36,016 nucleotides of DNA from Luteitalea sp. (lineage in GTDB: Bacteria > Acidobacteriota > Vicinamibacteria > Vicinamibacterales > Vicinamibacteraceae): NCBI GenBank assembly GCA_009377605.1, contig WHTT01000066.1:1-36016 (forward strand), written 5' to 3'. Positions within the stretch are counted from its first letter, which is position 1. Each line of letters begins with the position of its first letter. Below, one piece after another: positions 30,135-36,016 of the stretch. The position numbers and the translations under genes were made by a program. Under the pieces are notes generated by a model, which was given only the letters and a program-made list of their open reading frames with translations, ran no database searches and was not told the DNA's origin.

Positions 30135-30935
30135 TCATCGCGATCGGGCAGCAGAATCGGGCAATTGCCATTCCGCTTGAAGGCGGGTGTACTCGCGCTC
30201 CGGCAGCAGCACGAAGATCGGGTGCTCCTCGGGTCGCAGCCAGGCCAGCAGGTCGAGCATCGCGGGCTCGGCCATCGCCGTGCATCCGACCGTCGGCGCT
30301 CCGGCGGTCCTCCAGAGGTGCGCGAAGATGCAGCTGCCCGCCCCGGCCCGTGCGTCCGCGTTGTGCTCGATGACGAAGCCGTGCTTGTAGAGCTGATCGC
30401 CGTCGACATGAAGGTCGCGCCGCATCGGCTCGGTGGAGCCTGCGATCGCCGCTTCACCGACCTCGCGGGCATCGACGATGCGGTTGTAAAGCGGGGACGC
30501 GGTCACATCCATGCAGTAATGCGATGCGTGCATGGGCGCGTAGGGCAGCGCCGTGCGCGCCGAGTCGGCGTAGCCGAACGCCTCGCCGATCCGGAACACG
30601 CCGGCGGGACTGCGGCCGTCGCCCTCGCGCTTGACCGGACCCGGCCGATCGGGATGCAGGCCCGCGCCCCAGGCTGAACCCGAACGACCGATGGTGACCG
30701 GGACAGCGGCAGCGGCGGCCTGCCATCCGCGTTTCGTCCGGACGAAGGTGCGCATGACCCCGTGGTCGGCGTCCCAGTCGGCGGTCGTCACCAGCACGAG
30801 CTGGCGTGCCCCCTTCCACGGGACATCGATCGCCTGGGCGGCAATGCCGTCACCTGAGACCGCGGAAAGCATCATCGCCAGCTGCGCGATCAGCAGCCGC
30901 AGGACGACGCGCCGGATGTTGGCTGGGTTGGACAT
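30135..30935 (-). CDS. L,D-transpeptidase (YkuD-like) family protein
   Basis: ATG 30935 gives 266 residues; the frame is open to 31169 through the miniature element, so the later start is preferred. The N-terminal hydrophobic segment (LRLLIAQLAMMLSAVSG) is a signal or anchor. The catalytic block is CIFAHLWRTAGAPTVGCTAM, with His and the SxGC-like TVGC carrying the nucleophilic Cys, and it is preceded by SPAGVFRIGEAFGYADSART and YCMDVTASPLYNRIVDA. This is the COG3786 branch of L,D-transpeptidase-like proteins, periplasmic and acting on peptidoglycan peptides. The Ser usual in SxGC is Thr-Val here. Likely functional. Confidence 0.88.
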   Translation of the reverse strand: MSNPANIRRVVLRLLIAQLAMMLSAVSGDGIAAQAIDVPWKGARQLVLVTTADWDADHGVMRTFVRTKRGWQAAAAAVPVTIGRSGSAWGAGLHPDRPGPVKREGDGRSPAGVFRIGEAFGYADSARTALPYAPMHASHYCMDVTASPLYNRIVDAREVGEAAIAGSTEPMRRDLHVDGDQLYKHGFVIEHNADARAGAGSCIFAHLWRTAGAPTVGCTAMAEPAMLDLLAWLRPEEHPIFVLLPEREYTRLQAEWQLPDSAARSR

Positions 30936-31021
30936 GGCGATGCCCGATCGTTTCGGATGCCCGGATGCAGTCACGATATGAACATCGGCTGCATCCGATC
31001 CAGATTGTCGTCGAGCCGTGC

Positions 31022-31184
31022 TAGTGTCCCGCAACAGTGATTCGTTGCATAAGTCCCGGAGCGCGGCGTTCGCCTGGCAAGGCGCGAGGAAGGAGAATAC
31101 AGGCCGTATTTGACTGACGAGCAACGTCGCCAGGCGGGCGCCCCGCCCGGGAATTATGTGACGAATCACTGTTACGGGACACTA
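31022..31184. mobile_element. 163-bp miniature inverted-repeat element (IS630-like MITE)
   Basis: Terminal arms of 31 bases at 31022-31052 and 31154-31184 are inverted copies with three mismatches, beginning TAGTGTCCCG. Inner sequences also pair in part, so the whole element is nearly palindromic. The outer TA at both ends fits the TA target duplication of IS630/Tc1-mariner elements. No coding capacity. The end resembles that of the IS630 element at 35232 (TAGTGTCC-G, then TTCG, then ATAAGT). It lies between the L,D-transpeptidase and the kinase-fold gene. Confidence 0.85.
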
Positions 31185-32864
31185 CGGCAGTCTGTCCTCG
31201 CCCACGAGCCTCCATCCGTTCGCGCGGGGCCGGAAGTAGGCAACTACGGGCCTCTCCCATGCGGCGTGGGTCTCCTCCCCGACAGCGCTGATGGCCACAC
31301 ACACGAAGTCCCCTGGCGCGCGCGAGAGGTGCGCCGGCGCCGGGAGGTGCGGACCGGATCCGCTGGTGCTGCCAATCGGACGTGTCTCGCCCGTCTGATT
31401 GTCGAACCAAGACCACTCGGCCCGATACCCCTTGGGCTCGGGCGCCACACCGGCGCCGGACGCAGCGTTTTCGAACCGCAGCACGCCCGCGTCATCAAGC
31501 GCTGGATTCACGACGGGATTGATCGCTGGAAGATAGCGCCGCACGATCGCGTCGCGGCGCTCGATGAGCATCCGGATAAGCGCCGCCTCGGCATCCGGGT
31601 CGCCGAATTGGCCAGTCGCGACCGCCGCACGGATCACATCGTCGCTGATCGCCGCGACCTTACGCGCCGCCCAGAACTTGTCGTCGAGCCGGGCTCGGAG
31701 GAATGCCGGGTTCGGCACGCGCGGCTTCCACAGCTCGGGATCCCAGTGCGTGTGGTCGGCTGGGATACGTCCGACGGCGGGCGCTTCATACACGCGGTTC
31801 GTCCGCCACGGGCGCCGATAGAAGCCGAGCCCGAGAATGCCCTTGCCGATCTCCTTCGGCTCGACGAGGTACTCGTGGCCCTCCCAGTATTCACGAGGCA
31901 TGACAGCGGCACTCCCGAGCGTGGAGCCGAAATCCAACAGGTAGTGCTGTACGAACGCGTGTCCGTCCTCGACAATCAGGGTATCGAGGGTGTTGGCACT
32001 CTTGGCATCGACGTGGTTCAGCCAGGCGGCGAAGGTGCCGTATCCGCGCAGCTCACGACGATGCTCGTGGGGGAAGACGTCGTTCGGATCGTCGGGCCGC
32101 GTGCTGTAAAAACGAAACCCTCCGAGTGGCCGGCCTGGGAGCATCTTGCTGGCGCTTACGCGGTAAGAGCCATCCGCGTCACGGTCCGCGCGCTCGAGCA
32201 GCCACTCGATGTCACGCCGCTGCATCTCACGCGGCTCGGCGCCGGGCGGAGAAATCTGAGCACCGGGCTCGATCACGAGATCGTCGACGCGGAGGTTCGC
32301 CACGTAGTACTCGGGCACGTGATAGCCGAGTGCCCAGAACAGCCGCGACACGACGGTCTCGGTGCCGGTTGCCATGCCTCGCCAGCCCGGTGGATCGAAC
32401 TTGATGAACCACGCCACACCGCGTGCGTCGCGCACGGTGAAGCCTGGCGTGATCCCATCGCTCTTCGCGGAGACGATCGTCCAGCGACCTGGTGCCGGTC
32501 CGAGCCCATCGCCGCCGCCACGCGCGACCTCGTCGGGCGTGAGCGGGCGCGCTCCGGCACGATTGGTGAACCACGGACCGTCGGGTACCTCGCCGACGGT
32601 ATTGATGTTCATCGCGCGCCTGTCGAGGTCGGGATCGCCCGGCTTTCCGAACAGGTTCTCCACGAGGTCCCAGTTCAAGCTCACCGCGCCGGCCCGCACT
32701 CCGGAGGCGTCCTGCGTGCTCGCCTCCTCCCACAATGGGTCATCACCATAGAAGTGCGGCGAGTCGGCCAGACGTGTGGCGGATACCAATGCCGCACTCG
32801 AGACGAGGGCCGCCGCCACCGCCAAGCTGCGCCGCGCGAATCGCAGGACCGCTCTGTTGGACAT
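31182..32864 (-). CDS. Exported protein-kinase-fold protein, 560 aa
   Basis: Unnamed exported protein with kinase hallmarks. Residues ~10-30 form a signal peptide (SLAVAAALVSSAALVSA). In order: GVAWFIKFDPPG with K155 (ATP-binding Lys position), GTETVVSRLFWALG with E169 (helix-C Glu position), a hinge-like VPEYYVANLRVDDLVI, LNHVDAKSANTLD with H284, D286, K288 and N291 (the HxDxKxxN catalytic loop), and YLLDFGSTLG with D311-F312-G313 (the DFG metal motif). The C-terminal ~200 residues (WDPELWKPRVPNPAFLRARL, AAVATGQFGDPDAEAALIRM, RRYLPAINPVV) are a conserved all-helical-looking region of unknown role. ATG 32864 has GGAG 12 bases upstream; 32885 is an alternative. It follows the Omp85-like gene after 32 bases, and its TAG stop lies on the end of the MITE. 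Substrate and location beyond export are unknown. Confidence 0.75.
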   Translation of the reverse strand: MSNRAVLRFARRSLAVAAALVSSAALVSATRLADSPHFYGDDPLWEEASTQDASGVRAGAVSLNWDLVENLFGKPGDPDLDRRAMNINTVGEVPDGPWFTNRAGARPLTPDEVARGGGDGLGPAPGRWTIVSAKSDGITPGFTVRDARGVAWFIKFDPPGWRGMATGTETVVSRLFWALGYHVPEYYVANLRVDDLVIEPGAQISPPGAEPREMQRRDIEWLLERADRDADGSYRVSASKMLPGRPLGGFRFYSTRPDDPNDVFPHEHRRELRGYGTFAAWLNHVDAKSANTLDTLIVEDGHAFVQHYLLDFGSTLGSAAVMPREYWEGHEYLVEPKEIGKGILGLGFYRRPWRTNRVYEAPAVGRIPADHTHWDPELWKPRVPNPAFLRARLDDKFWAARKVAAISDDVIRAAVATGQFGDPDAEAALIRMLIERRDAIVRRYLPAINPVVNPALDDAGVLRFENAASGAGVAPEPKGYRAEWSWFDNQTGETRPIGSTSGSGPHLPAPAHLSRAPGDFVCVAISAVGEETHAAWERPVVAYFRPRANGWRLVGEDRLP

Positions 32865-32896
32865 GACTCGAAACTCCGCGCCCATGCCTCGACCTT

Positions 32897-34141
32897 TCAA
32901 AAAGCGGTCCCCCCGCCGATGTTCAGCACCCATCCCTCGCGGCTTCTGGCAAGATCCAGCCGTAGAGCCGTGAACGAGGGGCCATGGACGCGGAGTCCGA
33001 TTCCGTAGTTCTTCTTGAGCCCCTGTAGGTCGAGATCACGATGCCGCGCCACGACCTTCCCGGCATCCACGAAGATCGCCATGTCGACGAGCTGTCCGGG
33101 CGTCCAGCGGTACTCACCGGAAAGGAGCAGGCGATGTCGATCGCGGAAACGCCAGCTCGGATAGCCGCGGAGGGACGAGCTGCCACCCAACGCCGGCAGC
33201 ATGAAGACCGGCACCGTCTCGGCGTCGCCAACCTCCGTGGTGGTCACCAACCCTCTGAAGCCGAGCACCCAGTTGGCTCGCATGAGCGGCAGCAACTGGA
33301 CGATCTCGGCCTCCGTTTGCCGGAAGCTGAACATTCCCGTGTCGCGGTCGCCGTAGCTCGCCCATTCAACGCGGTATTGGCCGCCTCGCTGGCTGTAGCC
33401 TGGCTCGTCCCGCCAATCGACATCCAGGAAGATCCGCCCGACACCATACGAGACGTCCTCGCCGAAGCCCGCCGCCGTCACAGGGGGCGGATCGAGCGAC
33501 GCGTCGAGCCGGCCGGCATCGCTGCGCACGTCGAGGTATTCTGCTCCGCCACCAAGCGCAAGCCATTCCATGATCTGAAGCCTGCCGGTCACCGCGAGTG
33601 TTGTAGGGGTGTAGGTATACGTCGTTTCCTGATCCGGGTCGCTCTCATTGCCGATGCCGTAGAAGGCCACTGACGGTGCGTCGAGCCACTGGACCCGTGC
33701 GGTCATCGCGAGGCGGTGCCGGACGAGCTCCGGAAGGTCCAGGTCCGCCTGAAGGAGCTTGTAGTTTCGCGCCGACCAGGCGCCGCGTGCGTTGAATCGG
33801 CCGGTGTCCGCGACGCTTCGCTGATAGCCGCCGCCCAGCCCCAGCCACGCACCTGGGTAAATGCTCCCGATCCAGGGATACACCGAGCTCGTTGCCAGGA
33901 CGAGCTCTTCCGCCGTGTCCAGGATCTGCTCACCTGTGGAGTTCTCATACGGTCTGAGCTGTTCCGCCTTCTTCGCCTGCATCATGGCGAGCGCGTCCGC
34001 ACGGGAGCTCTGTGCGAGCGTCGCGCTGGGCCACGCGAGCCATGCAAGCGCCACCGCAGAGACGCGAGCCACGCGCACGACCGTCCCGCACAAGCTCTCG
34101 AGATTCACGCCGATGATCACTGTCTCGTGTTCCATGATCAC
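32897..34141 (-). CDS. BamA/TamA (Omp85)-family outer-membrane beta-barrel protein
   Basis: A 414-residue protein, GTG 34141 or ATG 34135. A signal peptide runs to about residue 43 (SAVALAWLAWPSATLAQ). The rest is strand-rich with alternating aromatic residues and ends in Phe (NIGGGTAF), the outer-membrane C-terminal signal. SSSLRGYPSWRFRDRHRLLL contains the LRGY/RGY motif of the Omp85 barrel, and EYRWTPGQLVDMAIFVDAGK is the last-strand pattern of D15/surface-antigen domains. There is no room for POTRA domains, so it is a barrel-only member rather than BamA itself. It is the first gene of an operon with the kinase-fold protein, suggesting export, display or lipid/protein handling at the outer membrane. 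Function unknown. Confidence 0.85.
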   Translation of the reverse strand: MIMEHETVIIGVNLESLCGTVVRVARVSAVALAWLAWPSATLAQSSRADALAMMQAKKAEQLRPYENSTGEQILDTAEELVLATSSVYPWIGSIYPGAWLGLGGGYQRSVADTGRFNARGAWSARNYKLLQADLDLPELVRHRLAMTARVQWLDAPSVAFYGIGNESDPDQETTYTYTPTTLAVTGRLQIMEWLALGGGAEYLDVRSDAGRLDASLDPPPVTAAGFGEDVSYGVGRIFLDVDWRDEPGYSQRGGQYRVEWASYGDRDTGMFSFRQTEAEIVQLLPLMRANWVLGFRGLVTTTEVGDAETVPVFMLPALGGSSSLRGYPSWRFRDRHRLLLSGEYRWTPGQLVDMAIFVDAGKVVARHRDLDLQGLKKNYGIGLRVHGPSFTALRLDLARSREGWVLNIGGGTAF

Positions 34142-34324: not shown

Positions 34325-34741
34325 TCAGCCGACCGTGTTCAGAATAGCGTCTCGGAATTCTTGCACGTCGCGCACGTCCGTACGGATTGCGCGAAGCACG
34401 AGAGACGGATCGAGTCGTGCATAATCGTGCACAAGGATGTTTCTGAAGCCAACCATCCGTCCAAGAGAATCGGCCAGCGGGCGAGCGAGTACGCCGGCCT
34501 CGGCCAGGATGTCGAATGTTGCGGCTCCTGTATCAGGTACACGCAGTTGTCTGTCGGCCACAATGTGGTCAGCGACATCCATACAGACCTCGATGACGAG
34601 ATGAAGCGTGCGCTCGACGATGCGTTGCGTCTTCCAGTCGGCGCGGTAAGCATCCAGCTCGACCTCGCGATAAGAGCGCAATTGCTCCAAGTACAAGTCG
34701 ATATCCGCGATTTTTCGCAGGATCAGATCGCGATCAACCAT
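34325..34741 (-). CDS. hepT: HepT-type HEPN toxin (type VII TA)
   Basis: A 138-residue DUF86/HepT protein. ATG 34741 begins VDRDLILRKIADIDLYLEQL and overlaps the mntA end by 8 bases. FRNILVHDYARLD contains R100-x4-H105-x-Y107, the RX4HXY motif: R and H form the RNase site, and Tyr is the residue AMPylated by the partner in characterised pairs. Helices and length are canonical and nothing is missing. An open frame extends further upstream through mntA but is an artefact. Confidence 0.95.
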   Translation of the reverse strand: MVDRDLILRKIADIDLYLEQLRSYREVELDAYRADWKTQRIVERTLHLVIEVCMDVADHIVADRQLRVPDTGAATFDILAEAGVLARPLADSLGRMVGFRNILVHDYARLDPSLVLRAIRTDVRDVQEFRDAILNTVG

Positions 34742-35159
34742 GCCCGTACCGAGCCGTGAGAAGTCGATGCTCACGAACGCGGAAGTCCTGAAACATGCGA
34801 GCGATTCGCGATTCATACCGATGACGTGCGAACGGCTTTCGGTCCAGTACGACACGACGATCGACGAGAACCCGACCGGCGAGAGAAATGGGAGCCGTGT
34901 TCAGAAGCACGACGTCAATGGCATCGGTACTCAGGTGCTTCGCCGCGGCGCGCGCGACCTCGAGCCGCGCGAATTGGCCATCGATACCCTCGGCGGCGTG
35001 GATGGCGATGTCCACGTCGCTGCGCGTCGACCGCCGGTTCGTGCTCACGCTGCCGAACACATACGCGAAGTCGATACCTGCAGAGGCACGGGCGATGGCG
35101 TCGCCAAGGCCAACCAGCCGCTGGTCGATGTCGTCCGGAACAATCAGCCTGAGTGGCAC
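34734..35159 (-). CDS. mntA: MntA-type nucleotidyltransferase antitoxin
   Basis: A 141-residue minimal nucleotidyltransferase that in characterised pairs adds AMP to HepT Tyr and disarms it. GTG 35159 starts PLRLIVPDDIDQRL. The active site is YVFGSVSTNRRSTRSDVDIA with G36-S37-x10-D48-x-D50, and the third Asp is D82 in DAIDVVLL. All residues are intact. No Shine-Dalgarno precedes the GTG; a TATACT box lies about 12 bases upstream (plus strand 35166-35171), so the transcript may be leaderless. A perfect GGCACAA/TTGTGCC palindrome sits further upstream. Confidence 0.93.
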   Translation of the reverse strand: MPLRLIVPDDIDQRLVGLGDAIARASAGIDFAYVFGSVSTNRRSTRSDVDIAIHAAEGIDGQFARLEVARAAAKHLSTDAIDVVLLNTAPISLAGRVLVDRRVVLDRKPFARHRYESRIARMFQDFRVREHRLLTARYGHG

Positions 35160-35210
35160 GCAATCAGTATATACCTGCGATGGCCGCGGAGCTCGCCCCG
35201 GGGCCGGTTC

Positions 35211-35227
35211 GGCACAATTGTTGTGCC
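35211..35227. promoter_or_regulatory. Palindrome upstream of mntA
   Basis: GGCACAA-TTG-TTGTGCC, 7-base perfect arms, about 52 bases before the mntA start and ~40 bases before the TATACT box. It could be an operator or -35-proximal site for mntA-hepT. It lies four bases from the IS630 boundary, so its regulatory context may have changed on insertion. Confidence 0.45.
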
Positions 35228-35231
35228 ACTC

Positions 35232-36016
35232 TAGTGTCCTGACCGCGTGGTTCGCGCAATAAGTGGCGCGGCCTGAAAATCGAGTGTTCGCTGGGCGAAG
35301 CGCGCAATGCTGGCGAGGATCTCGTCGGCGCTCTTGGTCCAGATGAACGGTTTCGGATTCGCATGGTGCGCAGCGATGAACTCGCGAATCGCCGCCTTCA
35401 GCTGCACGACGCTGCGATGGACGCCGCGCCGCAGTTGTTTGTTCGTGAGCTCGGCGAACCAGCGTTCCACGAGGTTCAGCCATGAGCCGTACGTGGGCGT
35501 GAAATGGACGTGAAAGCGCGGGCGCTTGGCGAACCAGTTCCGGATCAACGGGGTCTTATGCGTGCCGTAGTTGTCCATGATCAGATGCACGTCAAGGTGT
35601 CGAGGGACGGCAGAGTCCACCGCATCCAGGAACTGCCAGAACTCGGTCGCGCGATGCCGTTGATGAAACTGCGTGATGAGCTCACTGGTCTTCACGTTGA
35701 GCGCCGCAAACAACGTGGTCGTACCATGCCGACGATAGTCGTGCGTGCGCCGTTCGACCTGTCCGGGCCGCGTCGGCAGCACCGGTTGTGTGCGATCCAA
35801 CGCCTGAATCTGCGATTTCTCGTCCACACAGAACACCACGGCATGCGTCGGCGGATGCATGTACAGCCCGACGATGTCGCGGACCTTCTCAATGAGCAGC
35901 GGAACGGTCGACAGCTTGAACGTCTCGGTGCGATGCGGCTGCAACCCAAACGCGCGCCAGATGTGTTGCACCGTTGTGCGACCCAATCCGCTCGCTTTCG
36001 CCATGCCGCGGCTGCT
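35232..36016 (-). mobile_element. IS630-family transposase and left end of the element, cut by the window
   Basis: The transposase ORF covers 35231-36016 and is open at the window edge, so its N-terminus lies outside. The DDE catalytic residues are visible: [20 protein letters not shown] (first Asp), [18 protein letters not shown] (second Asp), and [19 protein letters not shown] (Glu). The helix-turn-helix starts [20 protein letters not shown]. The stop codon TAG (35231-35233) is formed at the very end of the element, where TAGTGTCCTG begins, so the last residues (TTRSGH) are encoded by the terminal repeat. This matches IS630 architecture with TA target. It separates the mntA-hepT operon from whatever lies beyond. 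Confidence 0.92.

Follow-up and report, generated by a model that had tools for sequence, protein, structure and literature searches.

A putatively exported kinase-fold protein, its obligate Omp85 barrel partner and their association with ATP/ADP translocase genes in Acidobacteriota

How could a protein with a kinase fold work outside the cytoplasm of a bacterium? To our knowledge, phosphorylation by kinases in that location is thought to be limited, no ATP supply being known there. The question is raised by two genes of Luteitalea sp. (GCA_009377605.1) on contig WHTT01000066.1, the whole of which, 36,016 nt of a 6.8-Mb genome, is the window analysed here. The genes form an operon-like pair on the minus strand (Table 1), in which a gene encoding a POTRA-less outer-membrane barrel of the Omp85 family, ending at 32897, is followed after 32 bases by the ATG (32864) of a gene encoding a kinase-fold protein with a putative export signal, confirming the two open reading frames of a preliminary description of this DNA. 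That description saw no standard explanation for the arrangement, ATP being scarce outside the cytoplasm; this objection to an exported kinase is now weakened, since genes encoding ATP/ADP translocases were found beside many homologous pairs, including a paralogous pair of the same genome.

Homologues were taken from 396 genomes drawn from the Acidobacteriota, the single phylum covered. In all, 63 kinase-fold homologues, down to ~35% identity, were examined, 59 of which were aligned for residue counts and used as input for AlphaFold2. Direct searches with the window protein gave no Pfam, NCBIfam or PDB-sequence match of its own. The AlphaFold2 model (predicted local distance difference test, pLDDT, 93.7; predicted template modelling score, pTM, 0.91) indicates a two-lobed kinase fold, set as a test in the preliminary description, of the HipA/CtkA/Fam20C/PI4K2 type, followed by an FN3-like domain. 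Comparison of this model with solved structures gave matches to CtkA (Z 15.4, 242 residues, 4.2 Å), Fam20C (Z 14.2, 259 residues, 4.0 Å, spanning residues 43-448 and including the N-terminal region), PI4K2alpha (Z 13.1 over 243 residues), CotH (Z 11.8) and HipA (Z 11.6); the leading solved matches over residues ~43-452 all belong to one kinase group, and Foldseek alone ranked CtkA first (2.7e-4). Regarding sequence profiles, HipA_2 (PF20613) was matched by 16 of the 59 members (best 6e-4, in the N-lobe in members inspected) and HipA_C (PF07804) weakly by two (best 8e-5), the scores seen lying below the Pfam cut-off and the window protein matching neither, and the Fam20C profile PF06702 gave no match in the window protein or the 59 members at E 0.1.

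All complete homologues carry a hydrophobic leader immediately ahead of an F-x-x-DDP motif, for which reason the family is probably exported, in agreement with the signal peptide proposed earlier for the window protein. A twin-arginine translocation (Tat) signal, to which ARRSL in the window protein could point, was rejected as a family trait because the twin Arg is absent from most homologues. The gene most likely starts at the ATG at 32864, in-frame ATGs at 32885 and 32933 being also possible. C-terminal extensions of 300-600 aa without a Pfam domain occur in the kinase-like homologues L094, L097, L092 and L117. Fusions of kinase and barrel genes were looked for, and the long 'open frames' at some loci proved to be out-of-frame read-through.

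The partner protein matches the Omp85 profiles PF01103 (E 1.4e-8, above cut-off) and NF047779 (4e-20), and no further Pfam domain was detected in it besides PF01103. Its model matches BamA with Z 27.6 over 303 residues, and the barrels of BamA, TamA and Sam50 are all strong matches. The absence of POTRA domains and the RGY motif, both already described, are borne out by a predicted barrel of 16 strands preceded by two short helices and by an Arg present in all 57 sequences compared, and the protein fits the 'noNterm' Omp85 group (PMC4104836).

The kinase-like gene was detected in 62 of the 396 genomes, often in more than one copy. A barrel gene lies directly upstream on the same strand in 61 of the 63 copies, the remaining two being cut off by the end of their contig, so that all 61 testable copies have it, and the neighbourhood check suggested in the preliminary description thus finds the pair conserved across the Acidobacteriota. 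Distances among barrels and among kinase-fold proteins co-vary (mirror-tree r 0.87; largest of 2000 permutations 0.12). The adjacency is far beyond chance, and the pair is obligate and co-evolving. A second, paralogous pair (kinase copy L042) is present on contig C80 of the same genome, in which no kinase-like partner was apparent among the predicted neighbours of the other Omp85 barrels. The nearest named relative, 77% identical, is from a Luteitalea metagenome-assembled genome (Vicinamibacteraceae, Acidobacteriota); a single scan of genome contigs returned one close relative, and no relative was present in any plasmid record. No description of the kinase-barrel pair was found in the open-access literature.

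Regarding catalysis, the window protein has K155, E169, D286, N291 and D311 all in place, with numbering exactly as given previously when counted from the ATG at 32864. Across the family these positions do not vary freely, yet they are not uniform: D286, N291 and D311 are nearly invariant, and substitutions at K155 and E169 mark two well-supported clades. Replacement of K155 affects 15 of the 59 sequences, mostly within these clades: members with Glu fall into one supported tree group of ten rows, which includes two rows with K155 and also contains the paralogue L042, and in a second well-supported clade both K155 and E169 are lost. L054 is a separate, fully degenerate member, which lost K134, K155, E169, D286 and N291 and retains the barrel and the family signature DDPND..HEHRRELR. 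This signature is the most conserved block of the family, D258, D259, N261, D262, H266, R270 and R273 being invariant (59/59). A Lys at position 134 or 155 is present in 58 sequences and both are absent in one; this is no more than suggestive of Lys134 standing in for Lys155, as in WNK kinases, the joint absence of 1/59 being not significant. Judged from the alignment, the family thus appears to include members that look active alongside others that may be non-catalytic.

Clustering of the flanking genes revealed a recurrent neighbour family, the TLC ATP/ADP transporters of Pfam. These neighbours match PF03219 with E values from 1.8e-17 to 2.8e-5, several above the 21-bit cut-off, and their profile matches solved ADP/ATP carriers (4.5e-34, 9j3n_A). 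In 24 of 60 loci a TLC gene was found no more than ~4 kb away from the pair, in four arrangements relative to it (co-directional downstream, co-directional upstream, divergent and convergent). The start of the TLC gene overlaps the kinase stop by 4 bases in L062, L068, L072 and L100, and in L073 it begins directly after the kinase gene, an arrangement typical of a single operon. An exhaustive search of ten genomes located 15 of 41 TLC genes at most 5 kb from a kinase gene, where 0.16 would be expected, and genomes with the kinase gene have TLC genes in 59 of 62 cases, compared with 96 of 334 other genomes (odds ratio 49). On the kinase tree, a TLC neighbour has been gained or lost at least 11 times. 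The genome of the degenerate L054 is one of three kinase genomes that lack TLC genes altogether, an anecdote pointing the same way. Gene order therefore strongly suggests that an NTT/TLC-type ATP/ADP translocase is part of the kinase-barrel unit in many loci. The window genome has five TLC genes, all away from the window pair, one of which adjoins the paralogous pair.

Some further features of the TLC genes were observed. In one genome (G269) a single open frame spans both TLC and Omp85 barrel (L045 1865-4342, the same as L124 6799-9342); it seems to contain a signal peptide internally and may restart at a GTG, and either a fusion or the loss of a stop could account for it. In L062, L069, L072, L074, L076 and L100, the kinase gene is followed downstream by a single-domain TLC gene that faces a longer, convergent one, and the two types are also paired away from the kinase (G037, contig C25).

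In plastids and intracellular bacteria, NTT proteins function as ATP/ADP exchangers. From the computed fold, export signal, pairing and TLC association we infer a route in which ATP export, docking, catalysis and substrate would be as follows. At the inner membrane the translocase would exchange ATP from the cytoplasm for ADP from the periplasm and, given the cytoplasmic excess of ATP, ATP would reach the periplasm through this exchanger. The kinase-fold protein would cross by the general secretory (Sec) pathway, fold in the periplasm and dock on the barrel, or be passed through it, and may use the exported ATP to phosphorylate a protein or lipid of the outer membrane or cell surface. For the window copy the translocase would be encoded elsewhere in the genome, which has its five TLC genes to offer. 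That the protein acts in this way as an envelope phosphotransferase, with an Omp85 barrel as its dock and an NTT as its source of ATP, we judge about evenly balanced between right and wrong.

Several observations weigh against it. The replacements of K155 and E169 in two clades leave room for non-canonical or non-catalytic members, and the sequence link to named kinase families falls under the Pfam cut-offs. Neither the window pair nor its close relative L011 has a TLC gene within the flanking sequence read, as is the case for 36 of the 60 loci, and three kinase-bearing genomes have no TLC gene at all. Some members with K155 or E169 replaced also adjoin TLC genes, so the translocase link does not track the canonical Lys, and the Fisher and binomial values for that link ignore relatedness. 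We also know of no proven substrate for TLC transporters of free-living bacteria.

Other explanations were considered for the same data. The protein may be a pseudokinase, that is, a kinase-fold scaffold or binding protein serving the barrel as soluble partner (e.g., as plug, chaperone or sensor) without phosphotransfer, its function residing in the signature rather than in the kinase residues. The seven signature positions are indeed the most invariant ones, K155 and E169 were lost in two clades, and L054 gave up five kinase positions, keeping signature and barrel in a genome without TLC genes; nevertheless the retention of the metal/catalytic D286, N291 and D311 in 57-59 of 59 sequences and of a Lys at 134 or 155 in all but one, together with a TLC neighbourhood that argues for nucleotide use, makes this reading unlikely. 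Doubtful, if worth keeping in mind, is a different chemistry such as transfer of AMP (SelO-like or other nucleotidylation) or phosphorylation of lipid or sugar instead of protein, to which a fold close to both protein kinases and the lipid kinase PI4K2, the departure of the Glu155 clade from canonical ATP binding, and PAP2 phosphatase genes adjoining some loci would point. Nothing in the sequence points specifically to SelO-like inverted binding, and this possibility would narrow the chemistry of the envelope phosphotransferase reading rather than contradict it.

The obligate, co-evolving nature of the pair and the known fusions of enzymes to Omp85 barrels, patatin in PlpD and the metallo-Omp85 proteins (PMC4104836), would also suit a PlpD-like secreted enzyme, for which the barrel acts as a two-partner-type translocon, sending the kinase-fold protein to the surface or medium to act on surface components or other cells. 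Such a role appears improbable, as the barrel lacks the POTRA domains found in Omp85/TpsB proteins known to translocate, no recognised secretion domain is present in the kinase-like protein, and a TLC exchanger would supply ATP to the periplasm and not past the outer membrane. Finally, the TLC genes might be unrelated to the pair, being common accessory nucleotide importers brought close by shared genome islands or phylogeny; they also occur where the kinase is missing (96 of 334 genomes), and the window pair has none. With 15 of 41 TLC genes close to a kinase gene against 0.16 expected, and with 4-base overlaps, four kinds of arrangement and 11 or more switches on the tree indicating repeated association, we regard this reading as very unlikely.

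A dedicated system of ATP-driven envelope phosphorylation, in which ATP exported to the periplasm by an NTT serves an exported Fam20/HipA-like kinase that a POTRA-less Omp85 barrel positions at, or passes through, the outer membrane, is put forward tentatively, our confidence being a little short of even. If true, this would give NTTs and noNterm Omp85 barrels a first function in free-living bacteria and would represent a bacterial counterpart of the secretory-pathway kinases of eukaryotes, whose ATP has to be imported into the lumen; a parallel may be drawn with the eukaryotic Golgi and its Fam20 kinases. The gene set of exported kinase fold, barrel and ATP/ADP translocase would open the matter of periplasmic ATP to experiment, and it offers a handle on NTT/TLC transporters and POTRA-less Omp85 barrels, whose roles in free-living bacteria were left open (PMC5381601; PMC4104836).

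Regarding the surroundings of the pair, the right end of a miniature inverted-repeat transposable element (MITE)-like repeat (Table 1) provides the TAG stop of the kinase gene. Several full-length copies of this element (85-91% identity) are present elsewhere in the genome, and its inner stretch (~bases 36-128) occurs alone many times. Directly upstream of the pair, 34325-35483 encodes a HepT-like RNase and a Polbeta nucleotidyltransferase (HEPN/MNT toxin-antitoxin type), beyond which lies a DDE_3 transposase (35231-36004). Further genes of toxin-antitoxin type, encoding a RES domain protein with a likely antitoxin, AbiEii/AbiEi and two PIN-domain proteins, are located on the contig at 3536-4416, 5286-6909 and 26986-28403. 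Downstream of the kinase gene, on the same strand, 30135-31169 has a sub-threshold match to YkuD (L,D-transpeptidase). In homologous loci, PAP2-type phosphatase genes adjoin some pairs (checked in L046 and L049), and second, smaller kinase-like proteins with apparent leaders are encoded near pairs in L052 (5723-6559), L046 (6758-7615) and L043 (1591-2436), that of L052 matching PI3_PI4_kinase (3.5e-4) and HipA_2 weakly.

Table 1. Positions of the gene pair and associated features in the window (AF2, AlphaFold2; ORF, open reading frame).
Feature	Position	Strand	Evidence or conservation
Putatively exported kinase-fold protein, 560 aa, MSNRAV... start	31182..32864	-	ORF; AF2; fold matches; 63 homologues
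Predicted Sec-type signal peptide, ~residues 1-30, ending before FYGDDP motif	32775..32864	-	sequence; leader in homologues
K134, Lys in glycine-rich (beta1-beta2) loop	32463..32465	-	kept in 54/59 homologues
K155, beta3 ATP-Lys position	32400..32402	-	44/59 K, 8 E, 3 Q, 3 S, 1 A
E169, helix-C Glu position	32358..32360	-	45/59 E, 7 D
Signature DDPND..HEHRRELR, residues 258-273, between hinge and helix E	32046..32093	-	alignment
Catalytic loop HVDAKSAN, residues 284-291	31992..32015	-	D286 57/59, N291 57/59
DFG motif, residues 311-313	31926..31934	-	D311 59/59
Predicted C-terminal FN3/Ig-like beta-sandwich, residues 448-560	31185..31523	-	AF2; FN3 Z 7.5-8.5 over 85-88 residues
POTRA-less Omp85-family outer-membrane barrel protein, 414 aa	32897..34141	-	PF01103, NF047779, BamA fold match
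Predicted 16-strand beta-barrel, residues 87-409	32915..33883	-	AF2 pLDDT 86.6
Two short predicted helices, residues 47-61 and 69-83, replacing POTRA domains	33893..34003	-	AF2
RGY motif R325-G326-Y327, Omp85 L6 loop	33161..33169	-	R 57/57, F/Y 57/57
MITE-like repeat, 163 bp, 38-nt terminal inverted repeats (89%)	31022..31184	.	sequence comparison

Among known systems, the CtkA/HipA kinases share with the window protein the kinase fold, weak N-lobe sequence similarity and the HxD-N-DFG-like catalytic positions, whereas the window protein is apparently exported and has an extra N-terminal region and a C-terminal FN3-like domain. HipA toxins are cytoplasmic and have a HipB-type antitoxin neighbour; the window family, in contrast, has a putative signal peptide and, at all testable loci, an Omp85 barrel partner. 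Fam20C, the Golgi casein kinase, works outside the cytosol and needs imported ATP. The window model matches it, N-terminal region included, with a Z close to that of CtkA, but identity is ~10%, there is no Pfam Fam20C match, and the window protein is bacterial with a barrel as partner.

The 'noNterm' Omp85 subfamily likewise comprises barrels without an N-terminal extension, for which a role in membrane protein assembly was proposed and no kinase mentioned (PMC4104836), while the window-type barrel is the obligate partner of a putatively exported kinase-fold protein. PlpD and metallo-Omp85 also tie an enzyme to an Omp85 barrel; here, however, two separate genes are involved, POTRA is absent and a kinase fold replaces the patatin or PF00149 domain, so that the window pair differs from type Vd (PlpD-type) proteins, which combine an enzyme with POTRA and barrel in a single chain. 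Both the TLC and the TLC-HEAT genes near the pairs belong to the NTT/TLC family reported from free-living bacteria, in an account that mentions no link to an exported kinase fold (PMC5381601).

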